Made by a program: the position numbers and the translations under genes. A DNA stretch of 64,000 nt, taken from positions 1 through 64,000 of the forward strand of contig NZ_NOIT01000010.1 of the NCBI RefSeq assembly GCF_004136555.1, given 5' to 3'. Below, piece by piece: positions 390 through 39,413 of this stretch. The notes under the pieces were generated by a model. The model made no database searches and was not told the DNA's origin. It saw nothing but the letters and a program-made list of their open reading frames with translations. How positions within the stretch are numbered: the first letter of the stretch is position 1; each line of letters opens with the position of its first letter. The stretch comes from Kocuria carniphila (GTDB lineage: Bacteria > Actinomycetota > Actinomycetes > Actinomycetales > Micrococcaceae).

Positions 390-1887
390 GAAGGAAGAGC
401 CCAAGGAAGCACCCAAGGCCGATACCAAGAAGTCCTCGGGCAATTCCGTAGAGGTCACCCTCCCCGCACTGGGCGAATCCGTCACCGAAGGCACCGTGAC
501 CCGCTGGCTCAAGGAAGTCGGCGAGCAGATCGAGGTCGACGAGCCCCTGCTGGAGGTCTCCACCGACAAGGTCGACACCGAGGTTCCCTCCCCCGTGGCC
601 GGCACCCTGCTGGAGATCAAGGTCCAGGAAGACGAAGACGCAGAGGTCGGCCAGGTCCTGGCCATCGTCGGCGACGAATCCGACGCATCCTCCGACGACT
701 CCGGCTCCGACAGCTCGGACGACTCCAGCTCCGAGGGCCCCTCCGATGAGCAGGTCGAGGACGCCGCAACCGAGGCGGACTCCGGTGAGAACACCGAAGA
801 GGCCGCCGAGGACAAGGCTCCCGCCAAGAAAAAAGAGCCCAACAAGGCCGAGCCGAAGAAGGAAGAGTCCAAGCCCGCTCCCAAGCAGGACGACTCCTCT
901 TCCGAGAAGCCCAAGTCCACCTCCGGGCCCTCCGAGGCCGCCGGTTACGTGACTCCCCTGGTGCGCAAGCTCGCTCGCGAGAAGGGCGTGGATCTCGCGA
1001 CCCTGTCCGGCACCGGTGTGGGTGGTCGCATCCGCAAGCAGGACGTGTTGGCTGCGGCCGAAGAGTCCTCCAAGGCTTCCGAGTCCAAGGATCAGTCCGT
1101 CGACATGGCCCCGGCAGTGGCCGGCGGTACCGAGGAGAAGTCGGCTGCTCCGGCAGCGGACGCCAAGCGCGGCACCACCGAGAAGGCTCCTCGCATCCGC
1201 ATGACCATCGCCAAGCGCATGCGCGAGTCCCTGGACGTGTCCGCTCAGCTGACTCAGGTCACCGAGGTGGACATGACCCGCGTGGCTCAGCTGCGCACCA
1301 AGGCCAAGGACCAGTTCCAGAAGCGCGAAGGTGCCAAGCTGACCTTCCTGCCGTTCTTCGCCAAGGCTGTCGCTGAGGCGCTGCAGACTCACCCTGTCCT
1401 CAACGCCACGTTCAAGGAGTCCGACAAGGAGATCGTGTACAACGGCTCCGAGGACATCGCGATCGCCGTTGACACCCCGCGTGGACTGCTCGTTCCGGTC
1501 ATCAAGAACGCCGGTGATCTGAACCTGGGTGGTTTGTCCAAGCAGATCGCAGAGTTGGGTGCCGCCGCCAAGGACGGCTCCATCTCCCCCGATCAGCTGA
1601 CCGGTGGCACGTTCACCATCACGAACATCGGTTCCTTCGGTGCGCTGTTCGACACCCCGATCATCAACCAGCCGCAGGTTGCGATCCTGGGTACGGGCAC
1701 CATCGTGAAGCGCCCCATGGTCATCACTGATGCGGACGGTAATGACACCATTTCCATCCGTCACATGTGCTACCTGTCGCTGACCTACGATCACCGCTTG
1801 GTCGACGGCGCGGACGCCGGTCGCTTCCTCTCCACGATGAAGAAGCGACTGGAAGAGGGTCACTTCGAGTCCGAGGTCGGTCTCTGA
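1..1887 (+). CDS. sucB: Dihydrolipoamide acyltransferase (E2 of 2-oxoglutarate/pyruvate dehydrogenase), 5'-truncated
   Basis: The reading frame is open from base 1, so the gene starts left of the window. This E2 core carries acyl groups on lipoyl-lysine between E1 and E3 of the 2-oxo acid dehydrogenase complexes. Visible order: linker, lipoyl domain with the DKVDTEV lysine motif, acidic Ser/Asp/Glu-rich linker, a second identical lipoyl domain and linker, Lys/Pro-rich linker, peripheral subunit-binding domain (VTPLVRKLAREKGVDL) and the catalytic domain ending with the HRLVDG motif. A linker precedes the first visible lipoyl domain, so at least one more domain probably lies upstream (inference). 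The lipoate genes lipB and lipA lie downstream. Whether it serves one or both dehydrogenases cannot be told from sequence. Confidence 0.93.
   Translation, partial: TKKSSGNSVEVTLPALGESVTEGTVTRWLKEVGEQIEVDEPLLEVSTDKVDTEVPSPVAGTLLEIKVQEDEDAEVGQVLAIVGDESDASSDDSGSDSSDDSSSEGPSDEQVEDAATEADSGENTEEAAEEKEEPKEAPKADTKKSSGNSVEVTLPALGESVTEGTVTRWLKEVGEQIEVDEPLLEVSTDKVDTEVPSPVAGTLLEIKVQEDEDAEVGQVLAIVGDESDASSDDSGSDSSDDSSSEGPSDEQVEDAATEADSGENTEEAAEDKAPAKKKEPNKAEPKKEESKPAPKQDDSSSEKPKSTSGPSEAAGYVTPLVRKLAREKGVDLATLSGTGVGGRIRKQDVLAAAEESSKASESKDQSVDMAPAVAGGTEEKSAAPAADAKRGTTEKAPRIRMTIAKRMRESLDVSAQLTQVTEVDMTRVAQLRTKAKDQFQKREGAKLTFLPFFAKAVAEALQTHPVLNATFKESDKEIVYNGSEDIAIAVDTPRGLLVPVIKNAGDLNLGGLSKQIAELGAAAKDGSISPDQLTGGTFTITNIGSFGALFDTPIINQPQVAILGTGTIVKRPMVITDADGNDTISIRHMCYLSLTYDHRLVDGADAGRFLSTMKKRLEEGHFESEVGL
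424..812 (+). repeat. Lipoyl-domain direct repeat, copy 2
   Basis: This is the second copy of the in-frame lipoyl unit. Identity with copy 1 stops at base 813, where the acidic linker gives way to the Lys/Pro-rich linker before the subunit-binding domain. A long identical direct repeat like this can change copy number by recombination and is easily collapsed in assemblies. Confidence 0.9.
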
Positions 1888-11820: not shown

Positions 11821-11894
11821 GGTGGGCGTAGCTCAGTTGGCAGAGCGCCTGGTTGTGGTCCAGGAGGTCGCGGGTTCAACCCCCGTCGTTCACC
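11821..11894 (+). tRNA. tRNA-His (anticodon GTG)
   Basis: The cloverleaf folds with acceptor GTGGGCG (11822-11828) against CGTTCAC (11887-11893). The extra G-1 of histidine tRNAs at 11821 pairs with C73 at 11894. The anticodon stem CCTGG/CCAGG holds the loop TTGTGGT, giving anticodon GTG, and the T arm is GCGGG-TTCAACC-CCCGT. A possible -10 box (TATAGT at 11769-11774) lies upstream and a long hairpin follows. Confidence 0.96.
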
Positions 11895-20893: not shown

Positions 20894-21832
20894 ATGGTAA
20901 GCACACTGAAGACTGCACTCGTGCCCGGCGGATCGCGAGGACTCGGTCTGCTCGTCAGCCGCGAACTCCTGGACCGTGGTTTTGCCGTGGCCATCGCAGC
21001 GAGAGACGACGCCGAGCTCGCTCGCGCTCGTGACCAGCTGTCCGAACACGGCACAGTCAAGGACTACGTCTGCGACGTTCGCGATACCGAGGCGGTCCAA
21101 GGCCTGGTGCACGACGTCGAACGAGATCTGGGCCCCATTGACGTTCTCATCACCGTGGCCGGGATCATCCAGACCGGCCCGCTCGAAGCCGTCACCCTCG
21201 AACATTTCCGGGACGCCATCGACACCATGACGTACGGCCCGATTCACTGCGCTCTGGCAGTGCTACCGAGCATGAGGGGTAGGCGCTCCGGACGGATCGG
21301 AACCGTGGCCTCCGTCGGCGGGCTGGTGTCCCCGCCTCATCTGCTCCCCTACGCGACCGCCAAGTTCGGTGCCGTGGGATTCAGCGAAGGCCTCGCCGTG
21401 GCGTTGGCTGGTTCCGGGGTAACGGCCACCACGATCGCACCCGGCCTCATGCGCACCGGGTCCCATGAACGGGCCTTTTTCACGGGTCAGTCGGAGAAGG
21501 AGTACGCGTGGTTCGGCCCCGCTGCGTCTTTGCCAGTGCTGTCCATGAACGCGGAACGTGCAGCCCGAATCATCGTTGACGGCGTACTGGCCGGCAAACC
21601 CACAGTTCTGGTCGGCTGGCTGCCCAAGGTCGCGCATCGGGTCCACGGTCTCGCACCGGGGCTGACCACGCGAGCAATGGGCATTGCCAACCGGCTGCTT
21701 CCGGGAGCACGTCCGGAACAGTCGGATCTCCGGGAAGGCCGCGAGGCGGCGTCGGGCCTTAACTCGAAGGTCGTGAAAGTACTCACCACCTTGGGTTCCA
21801 AGGCGGCTCGCAAGAACAACGAACGCGGATAA
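20894..21832 (+). CDS. Short-chain dehydrogenase/reductase
   Basis: The 312-residue Rossmann protein has GGSRGLGLLV for NAD(P), a VAGIIQTGP strand replacing the usual NNAG, and the catalytic pair YATAKFG with an upstream serine region. A C-terminal extension of about 70 residues follows the usual SDR core. The substrate is unknown. A 19-base-stem terminator follows. Confidence 0.88.
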   Translation: MVSTLKTALVPGGSRGLGLLVSRELLDRGFAVAIAARDDAELARARDQLSEHGTVKDYVCDVRDTEAVQGLVHDVERDLGPIDVLITVAGIIQTGPLEAVTLEHFRDAIDTMTYGPIHCALAVLPSMRGRRSGRIGTVASVGGLVSPPHLLPYATAKFGAVGFSEGLAVALAGSGVTATTIAPGLMRTGSHERAFFTGQSEKEYAWFGPAASLPVLSMNAERAARIIVDGVLAGKPTVLVGWLPKVAHRVHGLAPGLTTRAMGIANRLLPGARPEQSDLREGREAASGLNSKVVKVLTTLGSKAARKNNERG

Positions 21833-21850
21833 GGCCCGCGCGAGGTCAGC

Positions 21851-21895
21851 AAAGAACCCGGTGTCACGCCTAGTCTGCGTGACACCGGGTTCTTT
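21851..21895. terminator. Strong bidirectional terminator
   Basis: AAAGAACCCGGTGTCACGC (21851-21869) pairs perfectly with 21877-21895, with a 7-base loop and T/A-rich flanks on both sides. It ends both the SDR gene and the convergent SMR operon. Confidence 0.9.
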
Positions 21896-21901
21896 TGTTG
21901 G

Positions 21902-22273
21902 TCAGTGAGTGGTCGACGAGGCCGTACCCGGTGCGGGGGTCGCTGCCTTACCGGGCTTGCTCGGCACGAGCTTGAGACCGACCACCGCGGCGATAATGCC
22001 GGAAATGAAGATGATCTTCCCGAGCGAAACGCTCTCGGTGCCGGTCGCCATCGCGTAGACCACCGTCAACGCGGCGCCGATGCCGGTCCACACGGCATAC
22101 GCGGTTCCGATGGGAATGTGTTTGGCAGCCCAGCCGAGTCCCGCCATGCTCACGGCGAGTGCTGCGAAGAACACGATGCTGGGTGCGAGCTCACTCAGGC
22201 CGTTGGATTCACCGAGCGCGGTGGCCCACACGGCTTCAAAGACGGCGCTGATCAGAAGCACGATCCATGGCAT
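21902..22273 (-). CDS. Small multidrug resistance family exporter subunit B (probable guanidinium exporter)
   Basis: The 123-residue protein has four helices, the conserved glutamate in ISAVFEAVWATALG (residue 13), and GTAYAVWTGIGAALTV. The C-terminus adds a soluble tail of about 20 residues. It starts one base after the stop of a second SMR gene, and the pair is preceded by a guanidine-III riboswitch. It probably forms a paired, two-gene exporter of guanidinium (inference from family and riboswitch). Confidence 0.92.
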   Translation of the reverse strand: MPWIVLLISAVFEAVWATALGESNGLSELAPSIVFFAALAVSMAGLGWAAKHIPIGTAYAVWTGIGAALTVVYAMATGTESVSLGKIIFISGIIAAVVGLKLVPSKPGKAATPAPGTASSTTH

Positions 22274-22274
22274 G

Positions 22275-22589
22275 TCAGCTCACCACCTTCAGGCCGATCA
22301 CGGAGCTGACCAACAGCACGAGCAGTAGCACCCGTGCGGTCGTTGGACTTTCATAGCCCTTCACGAAGCCCCAGATCACGGTGAGAGTTGCGCCAATTCC
22401 TACCCAGACTGCGTAAGCCGTACCGGTCGGCAGAGACGTCATCGCCCACGCGAGACCGGCCATGCTGAGGGCCATGCTGACGGCAAAAAAGAGGGTCGGG
22501 ATTTTACGTTTGAATCCGTGCGATGCTCCAAGAGCGGCCGCCCAGACCGCTTCGAGCATTCCAGACAGAACAAGAATGATCCACGCCAT
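22275..22589 (-). CDS. Small multidrug resistance family exporter subunit A (probable guanidinium exporter)
   Basis: This 104-residue SMR protein has four helices, the conserved glutamate in LSGMLEAVWAAALG (residue 13) and GTAYAVWVGIGATLTV. ATG 22589 lies only 15 bases after the guanidine-III aptamer, so ligand binding could directly control translation or access to the ribosome site. It is cotranscribed with the second SMR gene. Confidence 0.93.
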   Translation of the reverse strand: MAWIILVLSGMLEAVWAAALGASHGFKRKIPTLFFAVSMALSMAGLAWAMTSLPTGTAYAVWVGIGATLTVIWGFVKGYESPTTARVLLLVLLVSSVIGLKVVS

Positions 22590-22604
22590 GACATGCGTCT
22601 TTCT

Positions 22605-22646
22605 GAGTCAGTCTTGTCGTGGTGCGGGTACTGCTCCCTCGTCCGC
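22605..22646 (-). promoter_or_regulatory. Guanidine-III (ykkC-III) riboswitch aptamer
   Basis: On the minus strand the region carries the three conserved blocks of the class in order and spacing: GCGGACGAGG, then GTACCCG, then GACAAGA. The stem GCGG/CCGC (22643-22646 with 22624-22627) forms. GAGCAGT (22630-22636) pairs with ACTGACTC (22605-22612), bulging one A, as the pseudoknot. A GAGCCC/GGGCTC hairpin lies just 5'. The aptamer precedes a paired SMR operon, the typical context for guanidine-responsive switches. Confidence 0.93.
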
Positions 22647-22823
22647 GAGCCCTGCTGCCGGGCTCCAATCCAAAAATTAGCAAATGCTCCTACGGTTTTC
22701 TACCCAGATTGGGCATGACGTACCTCTCCGTCGGCCGCCGCAAGAGTACGAGCGGCACAGCAGCTTTCGACGCCGCTCCGGTCACCTTCCGCGAAGCGCG
22801 GTGTTCCCTCCTCAAGCGGGTGG

Positions 22824-24092
22824 TCACGACCCGTTCTGTTCCGATCCACGACGGCGCACCAACACCACCCGGTACAAGATCCCAGCGGCGACCAGAATGA
22901 CTCCTCCGATGATGGATGCGATCGGCAAGGTCGCCACCAACACCAGACACAACAGCGCGCCGATGATCTGCACGATCGTGGGATACATCCGCGCCTCACG
23001 ACCCTGGGTGTAGGCGGAGACGTTGGCCACGAAGTAATACAGCAACACCCCGAAGGACGAGAAACCAATCGCCCCGCGCAGGTCCATCGTCAGCACCAAG
23101 ACGATCACCACCGCGCCCAGAACCAGTTCCGCACGATACGGAACGCTGTGCACGGGGTGCACCGCGGACAGCCACGCCGGTAGGTCACGGTTGCGGGCCA
23201 TGGCCAGACTCGTGCGGCCAATTCCGGCGATCAACGCCAGCAACGCACCCAGGGCCGCGGCCGCCGCACCAATACGGACGACGACGCTCGTCCACTCCCA
23301 GCCGCCGGCCGCGGCGACGTCCGCGAGCGGCGTCGTCGTGGTTGCGAGGTGTGAGGCGCCCAGGGTCGAGAGGGCGACCACCGCGATGACCGCGTAGACC
23401 GCGAGCGCGCCGAACAGGGCAACGAGGATTGCACGGGGAATGGTGCGGGACGGGTCGCGGACTTCTTCACCCATGGTGGCGATGCGCGCGTAACCGGCGA
23501 ATGCGAAGAACAGCAGCCCCGCGGACTGCAGGATGCCGTAGAACCCGGAGGGGGCGCCGTCGCCGGTCAGTCGGGATGCATCCGCCTCGCCGGAAACCAA
23601 TCCGGCGACCACCACGAGAGCCAGGACCACGAGCACGATCGAGACGATGATCTTGGTGAGTCCCGCGGTGCGCGTGACCCCGAAGTAGTTGACCGCAACC
23701 AATGCGGCCACCGCGAGCGCCGCCACGGGCCGTTCCCACCCTGCCGGCGCCGCGTACGCGGCGAAGGTGAGCGCCATGGCCGCGCAGCTGGCGGTCTTGC
23801 CGATCACGAAACACCAACCGGCCATGAAGCCGGCCCACGACCCGAGTTGCTCGCGCCCGTAGACGTAGGTGCCGCCGGACGTTGGATACTGCGCGGCGAG
23901 TTGCGCGGAGGAGGTCGCGTTGCAGTAGGCAACTACTGCCGCAAGGGCCAGGCCGATGAGCAGTCCCGAACCGGCCGCCGCGGCAGCCGGCGCAAAGGCG
24001 GCGAACACGCCGGCGCCGATCATTGATCCCAGACCGATAGCGACCGCGTCGCCCAGACCGAGTCGTCGTTGCAGGGCGCCGGAGTTGGTCAT
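22824..24092 (-). CDS. APC family amino acid/amine permease
   Basis: The 422-residue protein has about 12 membrane spans and the APC start signature (LGLGDAVAIGLGSMIGAGVFAAFAP, split across helix 1), TSGGTYVYGR and WAGFMAGW. The substrate cannot be read from sequence. It follows the PQQ dehydrogenase gene by 2 bases and ends 178 bases before the guanidine riboswitch, so it is upstream of, not under, that switch. Confidence 0.9.
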   Translation of the reverse strand: MTNSGALQRRLGLGDAVAIGLGSMIGAGVFAAFAPAAAAAGSGLLIGLALAAVVAYCNATSSAQLAAQYPTSGGTYVYGREQLGSWAGFMAGWCFVIGKTASCAAMALTFAAYAAPAGWERPVAALAVAALVAVNYFGVTRTAGLTKIIVSIVLVVLALVVVAGLVSGEADASRLTGDGAPSGFYGILQSAGLLFFAFAGYARIATMGEEVRDPSRTIPRAILVALFGALAVYAVIAVVALSTLGASHLATTTTPLADVAAAGGWEWTSVVVRIGAAAAALGALLALIAGIGRTSLAMARNRDLPAWLSAVHPVHSVPYRAELVLGAVVIVLVLTMDLRGAIGFSSFGVLLYYFVANVSAYTQGREARMYPTIVQIIGALLCLVLVATLPIASIIGGVILVAAGILYRVVLVRRRGSEQNGS

Positions 24093-32446: not shown

Positions 32447-32460
32447 CCCAGAAGTCTAGG

Positions 32461-32837
32461 GGACAGGCGGGCCTATGAGCCGGGTTCTGTGCCGCGGCCG
32501 GTTACCCGAGCCGCGGTGGTGACCATCCATCTAGGCCGTGCGTTGCCGCACGGCTCAAGCAGCCTACCCGGGCGCTCGGGCGAGCAGCCCTCGAACGCAC
32601 CCTGCATGGCCTTGCTCCGGATGGGGTTTACCAAGCCGCACCGGTCACCCGGCACGCTGGTGGTCTCTTACACCACCTTTTCACCCTGACCCGCTCGAGG
32701 CGGGCGGTCTATTTTCTGTGGCACTGTCCTGCGGGTTTCCCCGAGTGGGCGTTACCCACCATCCAGCTCTGCGGAGCCCGGACTTTCCTCGAGACGCGCC
32801 TTTCGATGCGCCGCGCGGTCACCCGGCCCGCCTGTCC
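32461..32837 (-). ncRNA. rnpB: RNase P RNA, bacterial class A
   Basis: On the minus strand it begins GGACAGGCGGGCC and ends with the complementary GGCCCGCCTGTCC. It contains the conserved CGAGGAAAGTCCGGGCT (P4/CR-I), AGGGTGAAAAGGTG and GTAAACCCCATCC, and the 3' CTAGATGGATGG element. The length of about 377 bases is typical of actinobacterial RNase P RNA. It lies between yaaA and the zinc-ribbon gene. Confidence 0.96.
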
Positions 32838-39340: not shown

Positions 39341-39413
39341 GGGCCTTTAGCTCAGCTGGTAGAGCGCTACGTTTACACCGTAGATGTCATCGGTTCGATC
39401 CCGGTAGGGCCCA
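39341..39413 (+). tRNA. tRNA-Val (anticodon TAC)
   Basis: The cloverleaf has acceptor GGGCCTT (39341-39347) against AGGGCCC (39406-39412), D arm GCTC/GAGC, anticodon arm CTACG-TTTACAC-CGTAG giving TAC, T arm ATCGG-TTCGATC-CCGGT and discriminator A. It is followed by a strong terminator. Confidence 0.96.

Follow-up and report, generated by a model that had tools for sequence, protein, structure and literature searches.

Our analysis suggests that Kocuria carniphila controls a two-gene guanidinium exporter through an ON-type guanidine-III riboswitch, a reading to which we assign a probability of about 0.9. The stretch analysed, hereafter the window, comprises 64,000 nt (contig NZ_NOIT01000010.1, positions 1 to 64,000), and the features on which the reading builds are collected in Table 1: a match to the riboswitch class, its ligand-site nucleotides and its helices, a pair of SMR genes, Gdx residues in both proteins and an opposite charge bias of the two are all observed here.

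Table 1. Features of the riboswitch-SMR cassette in the window
Feature	Coordinates	Strand	Basis
Guanidine-III aptamer, whole Rfam model	22602..22668	-	Covariance match
Upstream hairpin of the Rfam model, 6 pairs, 7-nt loop	22647..22665	-	Rfam match and folding
Pseudoknot helix P1, 5' strand GCGG (crystal nucleotides 1-4)	22643..22646	-	Sequence; numbering from the available part of PMC5696562
Conserved ACGA (A5-C6-G7-A8), with ligand-site C6 (22641) and G7 (22640)	22639..22642	-	Sequence; roles from the available part of PMC5696562
P2, 5' strand GAGCAGU, including ligand-site G17 (22631)	22630..22636	-	Sequence, folding
Pseudoknot helix P1, 3' strand CCGC (crystal nucleotides 21-24)	22624..22627	-	Sequence, survey, alignment
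Conserved core strand GACAAGAC	22611..22618	-	Present in 76/80 G-type aptamers
P2, 3' strand ACUGaCUC, bulged A at 22608	22605..22612	-	Rfam match, folding, alignment
Shine-Dalgarno-like AGAAAG, adjoining P2, 9 nt ahead of the start codon	22599..22604	-	Sequence, survey
GUC immediately 5' of the start codon	22590..22592	-	Enriched in riboswitch-led SMR genes
SMR1, 104 aa, Gdx-type subunit, charge bias -3 (N-out)	22275..22589	-	PF00893 72.3 bits; Gdx-Clo 6wk5 E 6.2e-22
SMR2, 123 aa, Gdx-type subunit, charge bias +4 (N-in), Ala10	21902..22273	-	PF00893 70.6 bits; 6wk5 E 5.2e-19
18-pair hairpin between SMR2 and the convergent SDR gene	21852..21894	-	-36.8 kcal/mol, z -6.9, 0/200 shuffles

The initial annotation had assigned the RNA to the guanidine-III class, with a pseudoknot, and a covariance-model search bears this out: a cmscan of the whole window (Rfam 15, gathering thresholds) returned four matches, one of which is Guanidine-III (RF01763) at 22668-22602 on the minus strand, covering model positions 1-67 of 67 at 44.7 bits (gathering score 36; E 4.7e-6, calculated for 64 kb and 4227 families). 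No other guanidine riboswitch class reached its gathering score when all Rfam families were searched in the window, and this is the one RF01763 match in the 3.42-Mb genome. The window also holds, at gathering score, an RNase P RNA of class A (32460-32834, minus strand) and tRNA genes at 11822-11894 and 39341-39413 (both plus strand). The interval 22605-22646 is the 42-nt pseudoknot core, and the upstream hairpin (22665-22647) lies outside it; the crystallised T. fusca guanidine-III RNA has 41 nt, according to the available part of PMC5696562. The folding energy of the aptamer does not differ significantly from that of shuffled sequences (z 0.08), so the case for it is made by the covariance match and the comparative data.

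The sequence allows an H-type pseudoknot with four pairs in P1 and seven in P2, and C6, G7 and G17 are all present by comparison with the crystal numbering (PMC5696562, available part); the remaining positions conserved at >97% were checked via the Rfam alignment alone. Of 223 related aptamers, 221 had a core that we could parse, and in 219 of these all four P1 pairs are possible when G-U is included; one pair is broken in each of loci L119 and L138, and compensatory changes occur at pair 1 (C-G, G-C, T-A) and pair 3 (G-C, T-A). Compared with the T. fusca RNA (5NWQ), the window shares the whole Rfam model, the ACGA, the three ligand-site nucleotides, GACAAGAC, P1, P2 and an SMR start just downstream, but its terminal P1 pair is G1-C24, inverted relative to the usual C1-G24, its stretch from A8 to C20 is one nucleotide shorter, and its P2 carries a bulged base. 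We put the missing nucleotide at U11; the Rfam alignment puts the gap right after ACGA. The shortened length, in the triplex region (G9, G10, U11), is found in 80/80 leaders of the G type, in 11/11 C-type leaders of pairs and in 49/124 C-type leaders of single SMR genes.

Downstream of the aptamer lies a two-gene SMR pair, as had been stated from the sequence: both proteins score well above the PF00893 cut-off (23.7), both contain E13, W16, S42, Y59 and W62, and their genes are joined by TGA C ATG with a 1-nt gap, a junction found in 24 of the 79 G-type pairs of our survey, in which starts were chosen mechanically. They are the sole SMR genes of the genome. The best solved relative of each is Gdx-Clo (6WK5), which shares family, length and these five residues but is one dual-topology protein, whereas the window has two genes with opposite bias and an SMR2 with Ala10. 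The available part of PMC7695847 gives the roles of these residues in Gdx, and there W16 is conserved in Gdx and replaced by Gly or Ala in Qac. The SugE equivalog NF008512 (cut-off 126) is missed by SMR1 (103.8) and SMR2 (87.3), though it is the top NCBIfam model for both, and we therefore file the two as a Gdx subtype and not as SugE. SMR2 is 90% identical to its Kocuria atrinae counterpart, and RF01763 followed by an SMR pair also occurs in Kocuria loci L149-L151 and L164 and in other actinobacterial genera. The hairpin beyond SMR2 is possibly a terminator for both SMR2 and the SDR gene; it is absent from the output of our terminator scan.

Judging from their sequences, SMR1 and SMR2 very probably form an antiparallel heterodimer that serves as one guanidine exporter. 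Charge bias was computed with the formula in the available part of PMC9574504, with loop limits that we set on the window's SMR1, for 209 distinct loci with SMR genes: the signs are opposite in 86/86 distinct pairs, always negative for the first gene and positive for the second, and the mean for the single SMRs (n=123) is 0.02. The heteromeric pair suggested in the initial annotation is likewise what the biases of -3 and +4 predict. E13, W16, S42 and W62 are invariant across the surveyed SMRs, and Y59 is missing from one single. Position 10 is Gly in all singles and all first subunits and Ala in 82 of 86 second subunits; the four departures are accounted for by L120, L124, L131 and L139, all of family f6, whose SMR2 has Gly three residues before the Glu. 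According to the same part of PMC9574504, pairs with opposite biases, as in heterodimers, make up about 20% of Gdx. The window's pair shares with these the adjacent genes and the opposite Arg/Lys bias and is of the same kind, here linked to one aptamer subtype; the two-gene Gdx arrangement behind guanidine-III is an already known kind of system.

The Rfam match ends 12 nt before the SMR1 start codon, which leaves no space for a terminator and so points to control at translation initiation or mRNA stability; control at translation initiation, as first suggested, is upheld in this wider form, and 15 bases separate 22605 from the start at 22589, as had been noted. The Shine-Dalgarno-like AGAAAG differs from the usual GGAGG; it presumably matches the 16S tail. 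A search of 21800-22900 gave no promoter-like site, so that read-through from the APC gene may occur. The available part of the review PMC12186494 describes guanidine-III as an ON switch of translation with an additional stabilising effect on mRNA; the available part of PMC5696562 classes the guanidine riboswitches as ON switches and cites the closeness of class III to ribosome-binding sites.

The GUC before the start codon is enriched among riboswitch-led genes: among the 199 leaders of distinct loci in which the first SMR gene starts 5-22 nt past the aptamer (others being dropped), 112 have it directly ahead of that start. The figures for the controls are 7 of 35 SMR genes without an aptamer, a set sorted by motif search and not by Rfam that includes second genes of pairs (Fisher p 8e-5), and 7 of 64 annotated genes from two actinobacterial plasmids (Fisher p 5e-11); relatedness of loci is ignored in both tests. 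Mechanically called starts (GTC fraction 0.023 of 214) were judged unreliable as a control, and annotated genes were used instead. GUC is complementary to the GAC of the core and could be its off-state partner, although the pairing tests lacked specificity. In the minimum-energy fold of 22680-22560, GACA is paired with the UGUC before AUG, but this fold is no better than those of shuffled sequences (z -0.63 and 0.09), and a longer stretch folds differently. When leaders were swapped, native ones paired 0.6 to 1.0 kcal/mol better for all three aptamer parts, and 0/40 swaps came as low; the effect is present in the 5' part too, which makes shared base composition its likely cause.

The terminal P1 pair goes together with the number of SMR genes downstream. 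Our sample of the order comprised 297 genomes, with RF01763 at E 0.001 in 144 and over cut-off in 136; all 148 matches were fetched (137 over cut-off, 11 under). A search with SMR2 added 80 named loci (the best 80 of 120), a set selected for SMR2 likeness, 75 of them with RF01763 at gathering score; five loci occur in both sets and are counted twice among the 223 combined leaders. The G type comprises 80 leaders (79 G1-C24, one G-U), of which 79 precede an SMR pair and one (L147) has no callable SMR, whereas the 139 C-G leaders precede a single SMR in 124 cases, a pair in 11 and no SMR in 4; the rest are one T-A (single SMR), one C-C (no SMR) and two unparsed. The order sample alone, which was not selected for SMR2, gives 24 pairs plus L147 for G-C and 105 singles, 10 pairs and 4 without SMR for C-G, and a plain ORF count with two SMRs at 34/148 loci agrees with the 24 + 10 pairs. 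The 11 C-G pairs are nine from the window's own family (f1), L038 (f8) and L226 (Ornithinimicrobium). After the G-type aptamer of L147, the sequence at 1300-1600 (minus strand) reads like an SMR gene remnant with its middle deleted. On the K. rosea plasmid NZ_CP127860 a C-G leader stands ahead of a single SMR; together with the pairs of the window's type, this means that both forms occur in Kocuria.

A hold-out across the phylum, for which the prediction was fixed beforehand, agrees with this association. We drew 396 genomes; 51 had a match, 7 already in the first set were not reclassified, and 45 new loci were classified, weak matches included. Both G-C leaders (2/2) precede pairs; they come from one genus (g97), one of them at 35.5 bits just under gathering, and amount to about one independent case. 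The 36 C-G leaders precede a single SMR (30) or no called SMR (6), all five T-A leaders precede singles, and two unparsed leaders have no SMR, so that 0/41 other parsed leaders stand ahead of a pair. A limited literature search turned up no description of this aptamer subtype or of its association with pairs, and we do not claim that it is absent from print.

Common descent of one cassette probably accounts for the association between subtype and pair: one old duplication with its own leader, followed by spread or loss, probably lies behind most of it. In a small tree (106 columns; 16/75 distinct G-type pairs, 9/11 C-G pairs and 18/123 singles; L038, L063, L118, L122 and L226 left out for their long rows, and L146 and Gdx-Clo left out of the topology tests), the second subunits of G-type and C-G pairs group together with a support of 97 when L120 and L131 are set aside. 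The AU test does not reject a single clade of all second subunits (p 0.82) or one of the first subunits without L120 and L131 (p 0.90); the tree sets both subunits of these two loci apart from the rest, and SMR1 of L137 falls among the singles. The independent changes are few, and the association alone therefore does not establish a functional link. We regard it as rather doubtful that guanidine-III comprises two subtypes and that heterodimeric Gdx pairs have a leader dedicated to them, the G1-C24 form with its shortened triplex strand and bulged P2, perhaps tuned for subunit balance through the GUC-AUG context as off-state partner of the core GAC.

Other gene contexts of guanidine-III came to light in the survey. 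At L110, L112, L119 and L138 the aptamer (over gathering in three of the four) lies ahead of a small membrane protein that is not an SMR; a CBU_0592-family match lies directly downstream in all four, three over cut-off, and GACGACG stands in place of GACAAGAC in the core strand, as in 3/124 C-G leaders of single SMRs. This family is over cut-off in 47/297 genomes, mostly away from the aptamer, and after guanidine-III it is possibly another exporter family. Leaders at L308, L321 and L330 precede a gene for a small membrane protein similar to PF06695 (putative small multi-drug export), whose N-terminal parts score 26.2 (L308) and 23.3 (L321), under the cut-off of 30.7, L330 being placed by likeness only; a limited search found no literature tying PF06695 to guanidine-III. 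Those at L303, L310 and L311 precede a putative arginase/agmatinase-family gene, for which the L303 fragment matches PF00491 weakly (14.3 bits). Known associations given in the available part of PMC2864571 are emrE and speB.

For the cassette in the window, the characterised members of the class serve as our guide to ligand, switching direction, translational coupling, heterodimer formation and transport, and they suggest the following course. Accumulated guanidinium would occupy the pocket formed by C6, G7 and G17 and lock the H-type pseudoknot and the P2 triplex; the locked aptamer would leave the adjoining AGAAAG ribosome-binding site and the AUG free, and may also protect the mRNA. SMR1 would be translated, and SMR2 would follow by termination-reinitiation over the 1-nt junction, such that coupled translation yields both subunits together. 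SMR1 would insert N-out and SMR2 N-in, and the resulting antiparallel heterodimer would export guanidinium in exchange for protons.

Two other readings part from this scheme. The aptamer could be real while SMR1 and SMR2 each work as a homodimer, or while the exported substrate is a compound related to guanidine (methylguanidine, other guanidinyl compounds or quaternary amines): the substrates of Gdx include guanidinyl compounds bearing a single hydrophobic substituent (PMC9574504, available part), and guanidine-III binds methyl- and aminoguanidine (PMC5696562, available part). We nevertheless consider this improbable, given the opposite bias of every surveyed pair against the near-zero mean of the singles, the presence in both subunits of W16, a position at which Qac have Gly or Ala (PMC7695847, available part), and the division at position 10 between Gly in SMR1 and Ala in 82/86 SMR2. 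That the RNA is instead a decayed or altered riboswitch without a guanidine response would fit its score, which at 44.7 bits is low within the order (27.7 to 70.9 bits for matches at E 0.001) and below most matches, as well as its missing nucleotide between A8 and C20 and its bulged P2; it is very unlikely, however, in view of the retained ligand-site nucleotides, the near-identical core of 18 G-type leaders that we picked from different genera, and the 10-nt spacing from ACGA to CCCG in 80/80 G-type aptamers. These observations argue for a maintained subtype.

Nor does the export cassette appear to belong to a larger operon. The initial annotation had raised a wider guanidine-linked unit with the APC permease and the PQQ-type dehydrogenase, which lie in the same direction and adjacent in the window, are also adjacent in K. 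atrinae, and have no separate promoter that we could find between them and the SMR pair; synteny does not support this unit, and a single guanidine operon of all these genes is in our estimate a far-fetched reading. Using tblastn (E 1e-10) with both proteins against flanks of up to 3 kb in the 80 named loci (best 80 of 120), we found both genes beside the cassette in just one, that of K. atrinae, where the locus ends within the PQQ match, and neither gene in 78 of the 80. At L151 (Kocuria sp. cx-455), the APC permease gives a pair of overlapping partial matches (residues 1-127 and 167-275, about 1852-2391) upstream of the cassette, as of a shortened gene. In the window, a gap of 155 nt separates the APC gene from the aptamer, and the permease reaches the cut-off of none of the 25 listed NCBIfam models. 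The APC and PQQ genes do not look like a guanidine unit and are local neighbours. As for other guanidine genes, TIGR02712 (urea/guanidine carboxylase type) has no match over cut-off in the genome, and its only arginase-family match, a putative agmatinase or guanidinase of 312 bits, lies on another contig (G000:C13:19381-20193, L239).

In conclusion, these results allow a guanidine detoxification cassette to be annotated cleanly in a Kocuria-like genome and speak against a larger guanidine operon there. The aptamer subtype predicts in most cases if the pump downstream has one gene or two, and the natural pairs of leaders offer material for testing how the riboswitch fits a homodimeric as opposed to a heterodimeric pump.
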